A stretch of 51,783 bases of DNA from Bacteroidota bacterium (GTDB lineage: Bacteria; Bacteroidota; Bacteroidia; Flavobacteriales_F; PHOS-HE28): contig JAFDZF010000010.1 of assembly GCA_018267055.1 (NCBI GenBank), positions 1-51,783 on the forward strand, written 5' to 3'. The first letter of the stretch is position 1; every line of letters starts with the position of its first letter. Positions 32,896 through 39,860 of the stretch are shown in pieces. The position numbers were made by a program, and so were the translations under genes. Below the pieces are notes generated by a model. That model made no database searches. It was given only the letters and a program-made list of their open reading frames with translations, and was not told the origin of the DNA.

Positions 32896-34500
32896 CTACA
32901 GCGGGGGCTTGCGCAGGACCTCCGCCCAGGCATGCCCCGCGCTGAAGCGTTGCCAGGGACGCAGGCCTTGCGCGTTCAGCTGCTCGATGATCTCGGGTGG
33001 CGTCAGGTCCGTGGTGATCGCATAGGCGGTGATGTCGTCCACCACCGAGCGGACATGGGGGAAAGGCGTGTTCCCGACCAGGTAGCCCGCCCCCGGGTCC
33101 GCCATGTAGGTGCGCTCCAGGAACGAGCCGTAGAAGACCGAATCCTGCAGCCCTTGCTGCTCACAGAAGGGGATCGCTTGCTGGTGCACGGCGATCGCAT
33201 CGGCATAGTTCAGCCGGATGTCGCTCGTCCGGTCGTCGCGTCCCACCTGCCCGATCATGACACCCGCGAACACCGCCATGACCGCGATGGGCAGGGCCCG
33301 GTGGTAGGGGGCGAGGACATCGTCGAAGAACACCGCCATGCCCAGGAAGATGAACGGCACCACGCAGAACAGGTAGCGGTCCGAGAAGAAGTTCAAGGCC
33401 GTGAACCCCATGAAACCGAGCGTGAACAGGAAACCGATGCACGCCAGCTCGTTCCGCTTCGGGCCATGCCGGTAGGCCGGCAGGAAGAAAAGCGCGAAGA
33501 CCAGCCCCAGGCAGAGCGCGGGCACCGCGATGGTCCAAAGCCCCGGCAACGACCAGCGCCCATACAGGACCTTGATGGCCGCCACGTACAAAGGGATCAC
33601 CAGGAAGGCCCAGCGGCGGTCCCAGCCCCGCCAGAGAACGGGCACGGCGAATGCGAAGGCATAGGTCAGCACGTGCTGTCCTTGCGCCTCGAACAGGTCC
33701 GTGAAGGCCAGCTTCAGGTTGTAGGTCACCTCGCGCTCGACCCAGTGGAAATTGCCTACGTGCTCCGGATACAGGAACCAGCCGAACACCTGGTATTGGT
33801 AGAGGAAGAGCAGGAAGACCAGGCCCACCGGTGCGAGCAGTACGCCCACCCACCGCCATCCTTCGCGTGCATGCCCAGCCGGCGGCCGGACCACCAACAA
33901 GAGCAGTTGCCACGCGAGCAGGGCGAGCACCAGGATCAGTGCGGGCTCCTTGGTCAACAGCGCACAAGTGGCCGCCGCCATATAGGCCCACGGCCTGCGC
34001 TCCACGTACGCCCATGCCGCCAGCAGCGTGGTCAGGGCCAGCAGCACCTCCGGCAGCAGGATCGCGCTCTGGGCCAGGAACATCTCATTGGCCACCAGCA
34101 GCAAGGCCGCGCCCAGTCCAGCCTGGCGGGAGGCGATGCGCATGCCGCAGAGGTACGTGGCCTTCAGCAGGGCGATGGAGACGACCAGGGCGAACGCATG
34201 CATCGCCGTGCGCGAAGTACCGAAGACGTGCATCCAGGCGGCACCGGCCGCATGGAACAGCAGCGGGTGCCCGCGGGAGAGCAGCGGGTCGATGGCATCG
34301 GGCAGCAGGCTGGGGCCGTTCTTGTACATGGCCTTCACCGCTGGGGCATACACCCAGGCTTCGTCCCAGAAGAAGGGGAGGCCCAGGTACCGCCATTTGA
34401 AGGCCACGAAGGCGAGCAGCAGCACGAGGAAAGCCAGCGTCCAGGGCTCCCTGAGCTCCTTCCGCACCGCGGCCGTCCAGGCGTGCCATCGCTCCAGCAT
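32896..34500 (-). CDS. GT39-like integral membrane glycosyltransferase
   Basis: 534 residues from the ATG at 34500, with about eleven membrane helices. The first loop carries the acidic pair D46-E47 ('LPFFWDEAWVYAP') typical of GT-C polyprenyl-phosphate sugar transferases, and 'CALLTKEPALILV' matches the conserved K-E/D loop. The C-terminal ~80 residues are soluble. It transfers a lipid-linked sugar on the periplasmic side; substrate unknown. Only remote similarity to the other three GT39-like proteins here. A longer start at 34662 lacks a signal or helix and overlaps the divergent promoter, so it was rejected. Confidence 0.78.
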   Translation of the reverse strand: MLERWHAWTAAVRKELREPWTLAFLVLLLAFVAFKWRYLGLPFFWDEAWVYAPAVKAMYKNGPSLLPDAIDPLLSRGHPLLFHAAGAAWMHVFGTSRTAMHAFALVVSIALLKATYLCGMRIASRQAGLGAALLLVANEMFLAQSAILLPEVLLALTTLLAAWAYVERRPWAYMAAATCALLTKEPALILVLALLAWQLLLLVVRPPAGHAREGWRWVGVLLAPVGLVFLLFLYQYQVFGWFLYPEHVGNFHWVEREVTYNLKLAFTDLFEAQGQHVLTYAFAFAVPVLWRGWDRRWAFLVIPLYVAAIKVLYGRWSLPGLWTIAVPALCLGLVFALFFLPAYRHGPKRNELACIGFLFTLGFMGFTALNFFSDRYLFCVVPFIFLGMAVFFDDVLAPYHRALPIAVMAVFAGVMIGQVGRDDRTSDIRLNYADAIAVHQQAIPFCEQQGLQDSVFYGSFLERTYMADPGAGYLVGNTPFPHVRSVVDDITAYAITTDLTPPEIIEQLNAQGLRPWQRFSAGHAWAEVLRKPPL

Positions 34501-34549
34501 GGGCCAATGGTACGAAGCTTCGCTGCGCCGCGGAGGCGGCGTCCCGCGC

Positions 34550-34576
34550 TTGCACAGCGTCCACGAGATAGATTTG
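34550..34576 (+). promoter_or_regulatory. Bacteroidota promoter TTG-N16-TAGATTTG
   Basis: A -33 TTG (34550-34552) and an exact -7 box TAGATTTG (34569-34576), 6 nt before the ATG at 34583. Transcription should begin at or next to the start codon. Confidence 0.6.
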
Positions 34577-34582
34577 GGCACC

Positions 34583-36040
34583 ATGGACCTCTGCTCCGCC
34601 ACGCGTTCGCTGCTGTTCGGGATGGCGTGCGGCCTGTTCCTGCAAGGGAACGCGCAGATCACCTGGCGCCGTACGTACGGCGGCTTCGGGGCGGACCATG
34701 CGCATTGCGTGCGCCAGACGAGCGACGGCGGCTACATCATCACAGGCACAGCAGGCAGCTTCGGTAACGGGGCCTCGGACATCTATGTGGTGCGCGTGGA
34801 CGCGCAAGGCGCCCCGATCTGGTCAAGGACCTACGGTGGGCCGGGCGTGGAGCAGGGCATCGCCTGCCGGGAACTGGCCGATGGCTTCATCATCGCGGGC
34901 TATACCTCGCTGGGGGCGAACGGCTCGTACGACCTGCGGCTGGTCCGCACGGACCCTTCCGGCACACCGCTGTGGCAGAAGGATTATGGCACCTCCGGCT
35001 GGGACCTCTGCAACGCGTTCGAGCTTTTGCCGAACGGGTTCATCCTCGGCGGCATCAGTTACGGCCCGGCCACCCCGATGGGTGCCCCGTACGTCGTTCG
35101 CACCGACCTGAACGGCGATACGCTGTGGACGAGCTGTCCGCCCGGTGCGCTCCGGGCGGAATGTGCGGGCCTTGCGCGCACGAATGATGGAGGGATCGTC
35201 CTGGTCGGGTCACAGGATACGCCGGAGGGCCCTGCCGATGCGTTCATGACCAAGCTGAACGCGGATGGCGGACCGGTGTGGACCACCGTCATCGGTGGCG
35301 ACAGCACCGACTACTTCTCCGCCGTGCTCGAACGCCCCGATGGTGGATTGGTCGCCTGCGGGGGCACGCACAGCTGGAACGACAACCTCCAGATCTATAT
35401 CGTGGGCGTGCACCCGGACGGCCAGCTGGATTGGGAAGAACGCCAGGGCGATGTGTCGGACGCGGCGGCATCCGATATCCGCCTGGACCACGTGGACGGT
35501 TACGTGTTCACGGGGTACAACACCCTCAACCTGGGTGAGCGGGACATCATCCTCACCACCACCTATCCGAACGGCGGCTTCCGCTTCGGCAACAACTACG
35601 GCGACGGCCGCCCGGCCGATGGCTACTCCATCGAGCCCACCGCCGATGGTGGTTATGTGGTGGCCGGCTGGAGCGAGGATTTCGGTCCCGGCCAACGCTC
35701 CATGTACGTGGTGAAGACCGACGGCCAAGGACAGACCGCCAGCCTGACCGTACAGACCTATCTGGATCCGCTGAAGGTGGACGGGGTCGATGGCGAGGCG
35801 GGGCCAGCGGTCTTTCCGCAGCCGGCTACCGTGGGCGGGACCGTCACGTTGCGGCTGTCCGCTGATGGACCTTGCGATCTGGTATTGAACGATCTGCAGG
35901 GCAGGCTCGTGTTCAGCCGGTCCTTGCTTCCGCAGGAGCGTGCGTTCGTCGTGCCGGAGATCCCGGAGGGTTTGTATGTGCTTTCGGTGCGCGGGCGCTC
36001 GGGGATGCTGTTGAGCAGCCCCTTGGTGGTGCAACGTTGA
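34583..36040 (+). CDS. T9SS-sorted secreted repeat protein
   Basis: 485 residues. Signal peptide 1-23 (GNAQ). About eight propeller-like repeats follow, each ~50 residues, with 'W-x-[RK]-[TD]-YGG', 'D-x-[YF]-[VL]-V[RK]-[VT]-D' and 'T-x-DGG[YI]-[IV]-[ITVL]-[TVA]-G' (e.g. 'TSDGGYIITG', 'TNDGGIVLVG', 'TADGGYVVAG'). The C-terminal ~80 residues are a T9SS sorting domain (VFPQPATVGGTVTL ... IPEGLYVLSV). It is likely a surface-displayed beta-propeller; the ligand is unknown. Confidence 0.85.
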   Translation: MDLCSATRSLLFGMACGLFLQGNAQITWRRTYGGFGADHAHCVRQTSDGGYIITGTAGSFGNGASDIYVVRVDAQGAPIWSRTYGGPGVEQGIACRELADGFIIAGYTSLGANGSYDLRLVRTDPSGTPLWQKDYGTSGWDLCNAFELLPNGFILGGISYGPATPMGAPYVVRTDLNGDTLWTSCPPGALRAECAGLARTNDGGIVLVGSQDTPEGPADAFMTKLNADGGPVWTTVIGGDSTDYFSAVLERPDGGLVACGGTHSWNDNLQIYIVGVHPDGQLDWEERQGDVSDAAASDIRLDHVDGYVFTGYNTLNLGERDIILTTTYPNGGFRFGNNYGDGRPADGYSIEPTADGGYVVAGWSEDFGPGQRSMYVVKTDGQGQTASLTVQTYLDPLKVDGVDGEAGPAVFPQPATVGGTVTLRLSADGPCDLVLNDLQGRLVFSRSLLPQERAFVVPEIPEGLYVLSVRGRSGMLLSSPLVVQR

Positions 36041-36203: not shown

Positions 36204-37766
36204 ATGTTCGACCTTCTCTTTCCCGAGAAGCAACAGGTGTTCCTGGTCTGCAGTGTGATCGGGACCATTGCGGCGACCTTCTTCCAGCAAAAAGGCAAGA
36301 CCGGATGGGCTTTGGTGGTACTGACCCTGGTTGCGTTCCTGGTCAGGCTCTTCGCGGTGCACCTCGATCCGTTCTTGAACGCTTGGGACGAGTGTTTCCA
36401 TGCGACCGTGGCACGTCGGATGGTCATGCATCCGTTCACGCCGATGCTTCACGCTGCGCCGGAGCTGCAAGGGACGTGGTCGTGGACCGAAACGCATATG
36501 TGGCTGCACAAGCCCCCCTTTTTCCTCTGGCAGATGGCGGCATGCATCCAGCTGTTCGGCGCGGAACCCTGGGTGGTGCGCTTGCCGAGCGCCTTCTGGC
36601 TGACGGCCCTGGTGCCTGTGGGATACCGCATCGGAACGCTCCTGGCCAATGCCCAGGTCGGATGGGGGACGGCCGTCTTCCTCACCTGCTCCTATTACTT
36701 GGAGGAGCTCACGGCAGGGGCCATCAATACGGATCATAACGACGCGGTCTTCATTGCCACGGTCGTATGCAGTTGGTGGGCCTTGCTGGAGCTATGGAAC
36801 GATGGCCGGTGGTGCTGGGCCGTCTGGGCGGGCGTGTTCGCCGCGTGTGCCGTCCTGACCAAGTGGTATGTCGGTCTCAGCGTGTTCCTGCCCTGGGGCG
36901 TCGTGGTGGCGATGAACGGCTTTCGGCGAAAGGAAGTGCGGGACCTGTCGATCGGTGTCGGAGCGGCCGGGATCCTGGCCGGAGCATGGATCGTGAGCAT
37001 CGTCTCCCGCTTTCCGAAAAAGGTGGCGTATGAATGGGCGATCAAGGCTGAACATCTTTCACAAGTGATGGGCGGACACACGGGAACGTGGGCCTATCAT
37101 TTCGATGTGATCCGTGAGGTACTGCCGCCTTTCTCCCCTTGGTACGTATTGCCGGCTTATGCCTGGCTGGTCTGGAAAGCCGGGAAGAAGGAGCACCGGG
37201 TCTTTCTGATCGTCCTGTTCATGGCGGTGCATCTGGCCTTCGGCTATGCGCGGAACAAGATGGTGAGCTACACCATGGTGCTGCTGCCGCTCTATATGGC
37301 CGCGCTCGCCCAGGCCATCGTTGGTCTGGCTGGGCTCATCCCTGCCCGATACCGGTCCTGGCCGATCGCGGTGGCCGTGCCCATGCTGGGGCTTTGGATG
37401 CTCGATCTGCCGCGCTTGCACCACCGCCACACGGTATCAGCCCCATCGTTCGCGGACCAGCGTTGGCGGCGCCAGCAACTGGATGCGCTCCAGCCCTTGG
37501 CCCGGTTGAAGGAACTTGTTCCCGCCGATCGGCCGGTGGCCGTTCTCCACGTACCGGCCGTGCACCACATCCAGTTCATGTTCAACACCGGCTACGAGGC
37601 CTGGGACCGCATGCCCGATCGAGCGGACGTGGAGCAGCTGATCAGGGAGGGATATGCCGTGTATGCCGTGCAGGATGGTGTTCCTCTTGATTCCTTTCCC
37701 TCGGGGGTGATGCTGATTCCCGACAGCGTCCTGCGCTTTCCGAACGTTGGACGCCCTGGTTCCTGA
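36204..37766 (+). CDS. GT39-like integral membrane glycosyltransferase (paralogue 1)
   Basis: 520 residues with about eleven membrane helices. Catalytic-type D62-E63 sits in 'DPFLNAWDECFHATVARR', followed by 'WLHKPPFFLW', 'TDHNDAVFI' and 'AVLTKWYVGLSVF', the order seen in ArnT/GT39-type enzymes (GT-C fold). It should move a sugar from a polyprenyl-phosphate donor on the periplasmic face. Codon choice is less GC-biased than in most neighbours. It is a clear paralogue of the gene at 38307, and the two flank the 21-nt tandem array. Start ATG at 36204. Confidence 0.8.
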   Translation: MFDLLFPEKQQVFLVCSVIGTIAATFFQQKGKTGWALVVLTLVAFLVRLFAVHLDPFLNAWDECFHATVARRMVMHPFTPMLHAAPELQGTWSWTETHMWLHKPPFFLWQMAACIQLFGAEPWVVRLPSAFWLTALVPVGYRIGTLLANAQVGWGTAVFLTCSYYLEELTAGAINTDHNDAVFIATVVCSWWALLELWNDGRWCWAVWAGVFAACAVLTKWYVGLSVFLPWGVVVAMNGFRRKEVRDLSIGVGAAGILAGAWIVSIVSRFPKKVAYEWAIKAEHLSQVMGGHTGTWAYHFDVIREVLPPFSPWYVLPAYAWLVWKAGKKEHRVFLIVLFMAVHLAFGYARNKMVSYTMVLLPLYMAALAQAIVGLAGLIPARYRSWPIAVAVPMLGLWMLDLPRLHHRHTVSAPSFADQRWRRQQLDALQPLARLKELVPADRPVAVLHVPAVHHIQFMFNTGYEAWDRMPDRADVEQLIREGYAVYAVQDGVPLDSFPSGVMLIPDSVLRFPNVGRPGS

Positions 37767-37797
37767 TCCGGCTGGCTGTCCGATAGGTGCTCTGTTA

Positions 37798-38153
37798 TTG
37801 CAATAAGTCGTCCTTGGTTTGAAAACATCCGGCCGAACCATACATGGAACGGCGCTTTGTTTGAAAAGGAGTCCGGCATCTATTCATCCATCGGCTGGGG
37901 GTGTGATAACACGTCCGCATTCCTTTCAAAGAAAGGCGCCATCTATTCATGCGATCCCCGAATGGCTGAAAAGGATCTCCCGATGTATCCATTGGATCGC
38001 GCGTTCTTTTCACACTTGCCCGGCAGGTATGCACAATGCCCGTGAAAGGTTGAAAGGATCGGGCGTTCGTTCCATAGGACCGCTGCATATATGCATGGAA
38101 TCCGTGGATTTATGCAACGGGTCGGGCTCTCTTGGAAACGAGGACCCTCCGCT
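37798..38153. repeat. Degenerate 21-nt tandem array, noncoding
   Basis: About 17 consecutive units in phase at 21 nt, with one unit of 20 nt at 38050-38069. Unit starts: 37798, 37819, 37840, 37861 ... 38050, then 38070, 38091, 38112, 38133. In the alignment position 2 is T in 16/17 units, position 4 is A or C in 17/17, position 5 is A in 16/17 and position 6 is A or T in 15/17 (e.g. TTGAAAA, ATTCATC, ATCCATT, TTCCATA). Positions 11-16 are mainly G/C (e.g. TCCGGC, TCGCGC, TCGGGC) and 18-19 mainly A/T. So each unit has an AT patch and a GC patch, one cycle per two helical turns. The units are contiguous, not separated by spacers. There is no convincing gene inside. Confidence 0.75.
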
Positions 38154-38306
38154 ATTGCGGGCGATGCAAGATCGAACGGCTCTTCTTCTGGACCTTCAAC
38201 TTCCACCATGCCGTCATCAGCGATCGATCATTTGGTGCTGGGTATGTGATGCATCCGGCGCGATAGGAGCCAAGACCTACCTTCCGCAGCCACGGAACCC
38301 GATACC
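38154..38306. other. Noncoding leader region before the second GT39 paralogue
   Basis: The 21-nt phasing decays after 38153. Within this stretch I see only a near-match to the -7 element (TACCTTCC, 38278-38285) 21 nt before the ATG at 38307 and the small palindromic run CGATCGATCATT near 38221. No gene is supported. Confidence 0.4.
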
Positions 38307-39860
38307 ATGCTCTGCTTCTCGACCGAAGCCCAAGTACTGCTTGGCCTCGGCTTCATTGCACTCCTGGTCTCCGCTTTTCTCTACGCGCGATCAAAGGACC
38401 GTGCTGCACTGCTTTGCTTGTTAGGCGGCGCCTTGGCGCTCCGTCTGTTCGCAGCTGTCCTGGATCCTTACTTGAACACTTGGGATGAGTGCTTCCATGC
38501 CCTCGTGGCAAAGAATACCGCAACGGATCCCTTTAAGCCGATGCTTTTCAGGGAAGAAGCGCTCCATCTGGACTATCGGAACTGGACCCAGAACAATGTC
38601 TGGCTGCACAAGCAGCCCTTCTTCCTTTGGTGCATGGCCTTGTCCATCAAGCTTCTAGGGCCGACGGTGCTCGCGGTACGATTGCCCAGTGCCCTGTTCA
38701 CTACCGCCCTTGTTTTCTTCACCTATGGGATCGCACGCAAGATGCATGACCGCCATGTAGCCTTCCTGTCGGCTTTTTTCATGGCCTGCTCTCAGTGGGT
38801 CCTGACGCTGGTCATGGGTCAAGCGATGACGGATCACAATGATGCGATCTTCATTTCCCTGATCGGAGGAAGCCTGTGGGCCTGGTACGCGCTTCGCGAG
38901 GATGGACCCAGGCTTGGGGATCTGTTATGCGGGGTGTTCGTTGGCCTTGCTGTTCTCACCAAGTGGCTGCCCGGCCTGCTGGTGTTCGGTGGATGGGGAG
39001 TTGTGGCACTTTTCGCCGTTCCCGATAGGAAGCAGGAGTTGCTGGCAATGGGGCGTTCTCTTCTGGTGGCGCTCGTTATCGCGCTTCCTTGGCAGATATA
39101 CGGTGCGATCCGCTTCCCGGCAGAGATGGCACATACCCGTGGGTTCGATGCGAAGCATGTTTCAGAAGCCTTGGACGGTCATACCGGAGGGCCGCTCTTC
39201 CATTACGATGCCCTTGCGGAGCTGATCCGCCCGTTCCCCTCTTGGATGCTTGTGGTCCTTGCCCTCGCAGGTGCTATTGGAGCGACTTCCACCCGCTATA
39301 GGGTCCATGCGCTCGCTTCTCTCATCTTCACCTATTTCTTCTATTCCACGGTGGCGACAAAGATGACCGCCTACCCCATGATCACCCTCCCGTTCTTCAT
39401 GATCGGGATCGCATTCGCTTCACGGCTATTGGCTAGACCTTTAAGCGACAAAAGGGTGCCTTTGGTGACCATCACAGCAGCTATTGCTATCGGCTGGGGG
39501 CTTTTACAGTATGATCGTACCGTCATCACGCATTCCGATAACTGCATCGGTGATCCCTTTTATGCGGATCATCGTGCCAAGCACAAGCACAATAGGGCAT
39601 CCATCGACCTGCTGAGCGTGGAATTATCATCTGTCCGGAAACCGATCGTGTTCAATGTCCCATTCCCTGTGAACATCTATACCTCATTCTTCACTCCGTT
39701 CGAGGCTCAACCAGGCTTGCCCACGAGCGAGCAACGATCGGCCTTGGAGCGCAAAGGCTACACGGTGGTCGTGGTGGACCCACCGTCAACGACCCAGTTT
39801 CCCCCATCGATCCACCTCGTTCATCTTGGGAGAGCTTCGTTCGTCAACGAACCGCTCTGA
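38307..39860 (+). CDS. GT39-like integral membrane glycosyltransferase (paralogue 2)
   Basis: 517 residues, collinear with the protein at 36204: D60-E61 in 'DPYLNTWDECFHALVAKN', 'WLHKQPFFLW', 'MTDHNDAIFI' and 'AVLTKWLPGLLVF'. About eleven membrane helices and a ~90-residue soluble C-terminus. Same expected reaction (polyprenyl-phosphate sugar transfer in the periplasm). It has the lowest-GC codon use seen in the window, with TTA, AGA, ATA and TAT codons that are rare elsewhere. This suggests recent acquisition or weak selection on codon use. Confidence 0.8.
   Translation: MLCFSTEAQVLLGLGFIALLVSAFLYARSKDRAALLCLLGGALALRLFAAVLDPYLNTWDECFHALVAKNTATDPFKPMLFREEALHLDYRNWTQNNVWLHKQPFFLWCMALSIKLLGPTVLAVRLPSALFTTALVFFTYGIARKMHDRHVAFLSAFFMACSQWVLTLVMGQAMTDHNDAIFISLIGGSLWAWYALREDGPRLGDLLCGVFVGLAVLTKWLPGLLVFGGWGVVALFAVPDRKQELLAMGRSLLVALVIALPWQIYGAIRFPAEMAHTRGFDAKHVSEALDGHTGGPLFHYDALAELIRPFPSWMLVVLALAGAIGATSTRYRVHALASLIFTYFFYSTVATKMTAYPMITLPFFMIGIAFASRLLARPLSDKRVPLVTITAAIAIGWGLLQYDRTVITHSDNCIGDPFYADHRAKHKHNRASIDLLSVELSSVRKPIVFNVPFPVNIYTSFFTPFEAQPGLPTSEQRSALERKGYTVVVVDPPSTTQFPPSIHLVHLGRASFVNEPL

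Follow-up and report, generated by a model that had tools for sequence, protein, structure and literature searches.

The window analyzed here, a stretch of 51,783 nt from a Bacteroidota bacterium, contains three clustered relatives of PMT_2-type glycosyltransferases (32896-34662 on the minus strand, 36204-37766 and 38307-39860 on the plus strand), amid which a DUF5122 beta-propeller protein is encoded at 34790-36037. The two plus-strand genes, paralogues that encode PMT_2 family glycosyltransferases of 520 aa (36204..37766, thought not to be part of the array system) and 517 aa (38307..39860), enclose an intergenic gap of 540 nt (37767..38306), and within this gap a degenerate tandem array, not assigned to either strand, extends from 37798 to 38153. 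Genes near the array encode PMT_2 proteins and metallophosphatases, with no adjacent rep gene. An Rfam search of the window returned two tRNAs only and no RNA family match for the gap, which also had no Pfam match.

The array consists of 17 units with a period of 21 nt and a mean unit identity of 0.43, and the majority consensus of its unit is TTGCAAAGAACCGCGCCATGT, with the dyad centre on the TTGCAA part. A lone unit at 38050..38069 has 20 nt and is thus one base short, after which the register resumes. Base identity was 0.41, 0.41, and 0.40 at lags 21, 42, and 63, compared with 0.15-0.31 at most other lags, and 21 was the best lag in the range 12-40. The mean identity over lags 21, 42, and 63 (0.406) was compared with 500 dinucleotide shuffles of the segment, each allowed its own best lag (mean 0.279, sd 0.008), which gave a z of 15.9; the W/S version, the comparison with shuffled sequence that an earlier note on this DNA had proposed, gave a z of 15.6. 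Using a statistic that subtracts the codon-phase background, this was the strongest non-coding periodicity in the window, and it was missed by TRF at score 30 because the unit identity is only about 0.43. The unit alignment and lag identities bear out the description in the earlier note (17 units in a 21-nt register, one of them 20 nt long at 38050), as well as its view that spacing rather than a word is conserved. Its column counts also agree with ours for T at column 2 (16/17), A or C at column 4 (17/17), A at column 5 (16/17), and A/T at column 6 (15/17), but "G/C at 11-16" was slightly too strong, as columns 12-16 are G or C in 13-16 of the 17 units and column 11 in only 10/17. In addition, the unit profile is approximately self-complementary, a feature that had not been mentioned previously.

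Both DNA and profile searches found the array sequence once in its source genome. Many copies of one word, as in a dispersed intergenic repeat of the REP or MITE type, were sought in this genome and a single copy was found. DNA similarity searches of the gap against 58 relatives gave matches in only two genomes, namely the source genome and one match of 33 bp, and a profile model of the array run against 98 genomes, a search that had also been proposed, detected nothing convincing beyond the source array. The synteny of PMT_2 relatives in other species was inspected and no arrays were present there. Because the consensus could differ elsewhere, the period itself was searched in other genomes. 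This de novo scan covered 1.2 Mb of a relative (G010) and about 0.93 Mb (24%) of the source genome, a draft of 203 contigs; the genomes of the genus used here are mostly drafts as well. In G010, a single-contig genome of the same genus, the sole strong 20-22-nt array in the 1.2 Mb (C1:8119-8518) was located upstream of a gene whose 206-aa product contains a fibronectin type III (fn3) domain. A similarity search turned up another array in G020, likewise upstream of a gene for a relative of this protein.

The fn3 proteins have approximately 205 aa and comprise a helical N-terminal bundle (predicted, pLDDT 89) and one fn3 domain. A protein search detected the family in 32/45 genomes of the genus, with 0 to 19 copies per genome, and since it also occurs in many families of the class, cultured hosts should exist; the named public contigs with the fn3-array pairing are Flavobacteriales MAGs. 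In nearly all of the first 30 fn3 loci, an array with a period of 21 or 22 nt lay immediately upstream, and a 20-22-nt array was present in 71/76 fn3 upstream regions, which came from the genus and from further families of the Bacteroidia (a few loci are counted twice in the 76; the tree includes 57 distinct proteins with arrays). A control set of 1,196 regions upstream of long ORFs in G010 contained three that passed the same threshold at lag 20-22, two of which were the fn3 array itself, leaving one unrelated array (1/1,196). The fn3-linked arrays usually have 11-28 copies of 20-22-nt units and end mostly 177-325 nt (about 240 nt) before the fn3 start codon. The association was likewise found in other Bacteroidia families, including AT-rich genera down to 32% GC, where periods were 20, 21, or 22 nt, or superperiods of 42, 43, or 44 nt, all within two helical turns. 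An apparently alternating series of 21- and 22-nt units forms a 43-nt superperiod in the fn3-linked array of L187/L215 (G024:C1), and in L236 and L214 another tandem array follows the fn3 gene, with a period of 21 (score 99.5) and of 16 (score 77), respectively. A promoter or leader motif shared between array and fn3 start was sought and none was found. PADLOC and NCBIfam searches gave no match, whereas PHROGs gave weak matches only, to tail proteins via the fn3 domain. The model of the full protein matched only fn3 folds in Foldseek and VIA, and the N-terminal bundle alone had no confident Foldseek match.

The period of these arrays is inherited along with the protein clade. When 57 fn3 proteins were placed on a maximum-likelihood tree, those with 22-nt arrays formed one clade with 100/100 support, and the period required one change on the tree compared with 13.3 when labels were shuffled. 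The unit words are private to each locus, and their similarity reaches background by about 65% protein identity. For syntenic orthologues, e.g., L175/L203, the alignment takes in the gene and the flanks on either side but not the arrays, whose unit consensus words are unrelated. Within-array identity forms a continuum from 0.40 to 0.93, with a transition excess in the younger arrays, and the window array (0.43) stands alongside 18 fn3-linked arrays at 0.5 or below. Members of the class do not share the W/S rhythm; their recurring features are a period of 20-22 nt and the symmetry about a dyad.

Self-complementarity of the unit profile, scored against column-permuted controls, had a mean z of 1.80 +- 0.16 across 61 arrays, and the mirror control gave 0.24 +- 0.14 (1.82 and 0.08, respectively, in an initial set of 45 arrays). 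The flat mirror control shows that this is true complementarity and not merely a symmetric AT/GC pattern. The largest effect occurred among the most diverged units (z of 2.52 +- 0.27 for arrays with identity under 0.5), which is predicted by selection on symmetry and not by founder noise. In the window array, the dyad z was 4.25 and the mirror value -1.25, and it is resembled by two degenerate arrays beside intact fn3 genes, L166 and L173 (identity 0.47 and 0.43), which had z of 3.3 and 3.1. The symmetry is moderate in any single array, and another degenerate array, L210, lacks it.

The AT patches of the array had been thought to face one side of the helix and to cause phased bending. This idea was rejected: the 10.5-bp W/S harmonic was only 0.68 of the permuted mean in the window array and 0.88 in its relatives, and the W/S autocorrelation of the window array was negative at lags 10 and 11 (-0.25 and -0.22); AT tracts recurring at about 10.5 bp, as in phased A-tract curved DNA, were thus not observed. 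The other half of the argument, that 21 nt corresponds to two helical turns, stands as the likely reason for the unit length. Repeated protein binding, which had been offered beside bending, is the leading idea, as the two-turn period is accompanied by dyad-symmetric unit profiles.

Taken together, the periods of 20-22 nt and the dyad symmetry point to a scaffold on which a dimeric protein binds repeatedly as the best-supported mechanism, and we infer that the arrays serve as helically phased sites of two-fold symmetry for a protein. On double-stranded DNA, each unit would present a face of two-fold symmetry once per two turns, with dyad centres every turn, and a dimeric and largely sequence-tolerant DNA-binding protein could load repeatedly along one helix face. 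Candidate binders are the protein that the fn3 gene encodes and a protein of the nucleoid type, and the loaded protein might set the expression of the neighbouring fn3 gene or mark it; in the window copy, the fn3 gene may have been lost or separated. The arrays and the fn3 genes may form an unnamed two-part unit of Bacteroidia, in which a locus-private dyad array is read by its geometry rather than its word and its two-turn period, though not its sequence, is inherited with the fn3 clade, the window array being a free-standing example; we assign this reading a probability of roughly 0.5.

The place of the window array in this class was considered separately. Membership in the class calls for a 20-22-nt period over at least about eight units, a position in a non-coding gap, and a dyad-symmetric profile, all of which are found in the window array, and an fn3-family gene a few hundred nt downstream, which is not. 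The three fn3 copies of the source genome are on contigs C174, C163, and C82; an fn3 gene was sought on the window contig and an fn3 remnant in the gap, and neither was found. The gene that does follow, encoding the 517-aa PMT_2 protein, starts 153 nt past the array, compared with about 240 nt expected for an fn3 gene, and the other detectable arrays of the source genome have a period of 22 rather than 21. The window copy is therefore unusual among arrays of the kind found upstream of the fn3 family in that the fn3 gene is absent; lacking the partner gene, it falls short of full membership by the features tested, and its assignment to the class relies on period, length, symmetry, and genus. 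Two adjacent arrays with higher-order repeats of 42 and 63 nt were observed at L095:1-871 (G025:C113). They provide a precedent, as no fn3 gene occurs in the following 1.4 kb, the fn3 copies of that genome are on other contigs, and one of the two arrays is 79% identical to the fn3-linked array of G020. Given this precedent, and given that the window array shares genus, period, copy number, unit divergence, and symmetry with the class, we call it a probable orphan. Its most likely placement, as an aged relative of the cis-acting arrays found across the Bacteroidia upstream of fn3 genes, is nevertheless tentative, with somewhat less than an even chance of being right.

Several other explanations were weighed. 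A repeat of 21 nt could correspond to seven codons and encode a heptad-repeat protein, and hydrophobic-[HKQ] heptads do run in one frame across 37819-38049; yet the one-base deletion at 38050 breaks this and any other heptad frame, a TAA lies in frame at 37804, the gap has no Pfam match, and many sister arrays have a 22-nt period. A coding repeat is accordingly rejected as very improbable, and the array is non-coding as first described. The tandem palindromic units might instead fold into hairpins, as RNA or as single-stranded DNA, or form cruciforms when the DNA is supercoiled, with pairing rather than protein sites under selection. Dyad symmetry without sequence conservation agrees with this, as does the finding that arrays fold better than column-permuted copies (mean z of -1.11 on the plus and -1.27 on the minus strand). 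However, there is no strand preference, within-unit compensatory covariation was absent over 45 arrays (observed minus expected pairing of 0.002 +- 0.004), the window array folds no better than its column-permuted versions (z of -0.15 and -0.16), and the whole gap folds weakly better than shuffles on one strand only (z of -1.6 and +0.3). As compensatory change is lacking and both strands fold alike, single-strand pairing is not favoured, and since periods tied to helical turns would not be expected either, structure formation seems rather unlikely.

A role in recombination, with the array as a homology or recognition region for the copying, exchange, or amplification of fn3 genes within genomes, would fit the copy number of 0 to 19 in one genus, the very fast turnover of arrays, and the existence of orphan arrays. 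On the other hand, the period tracks the protein tree strictly, near-identical copies in sister genomes (L164/L165 and L170/L171) keep shared flanks, and searches for the family in phages, plasmids, and viral contigs found no relatives, and this role is considered improbable. Similarly unlikely is a neutral minisatellite produced by replication slippage, of which the window array would be an old and functionless example. The identity continuum and the transition excess in younger arrays are what mutation predicts, and the window array has no gene partner, but neutral decay would account neither for the fixed position upstream of one gene family nor for a 20-22-nt period that is fixed and inherited by clade, and such decay would not be expected to leave the greatest symmetry in the arrays that have diverged furthest. 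Binding of a dimeric protein to phased two-fold sites is thus preferred.

Comparison with known systems places the window array closest to the fn3-linked Bacteroidia arrays, which it resembles in period, copy number, intergenic position, dyad profile, low identity, and genus, whereas class members adjoin an fn3 gene and it does not. Iterons of plasmid and phage origins are direct repeats that measure about two helical turns and to which an initiator binds, and in spacing they are like the present arrays. Iterons, however, have conserved words read by a specific Rep protein, whereas the arrays change their words from one orthologue to another and are linked to an fn3 protein; as had been remarked, iterons are far better conserved than the window array, which has a low unit identity and, in addition, no adjacent rep gene. 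Bacterial minisatellites or VNTRs upstream of genes share tandem organization, a gene-proximal gap, and fast turnover with the fn3-linked arrays, which differ in that the clade of the downstream protein fixes their period and in that they have a dyad symmetry in common; the window array in addition lacks the high unit identity of an ordinary minisatellite. Eukaryotic centromeric satellites are a loose analogy: their sequence changes fast, their unit length is constrained, and some are reported to have dyad symmetries, but organism, unit length, and associated proteins differ. CRISPR arrays have regular repeat spacing in common with the window array, whose units are contiguous, without unique spacers or a conserved repeat word, so that the previous exclusion of CRISPR is upheld. 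Searches of the open-access literature found no description of such arrays, in agreement with the statement that no named Bacteroidota element with this structure is known, and within that literature the class is apparently undescribed so far.

If spacing and symmetry are indeed inherited with a protein family while the letters are replaced, this would be an unusual case of conserved geometry in a bacterial chromosome. The arrays may also account for some heptad-repeat "hypothetical proteins", which are probably translations of such arrays. Long open frames with heptad repeats made by arrays were observed at L053:8089-8727 (minus strand), L194:3208-3543, and L204:3026-3877, sometimes on both strands (e.g., LRRDPIE repeats), and array-derived frames are a likely source of spurious annotations of this kind. 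A 7-nt tandem array, (AAGGACC)n, was also present at a contig end (L142:1-200, the start of G008:C34), and its period is unrelated to that of the 21-nt arrays.
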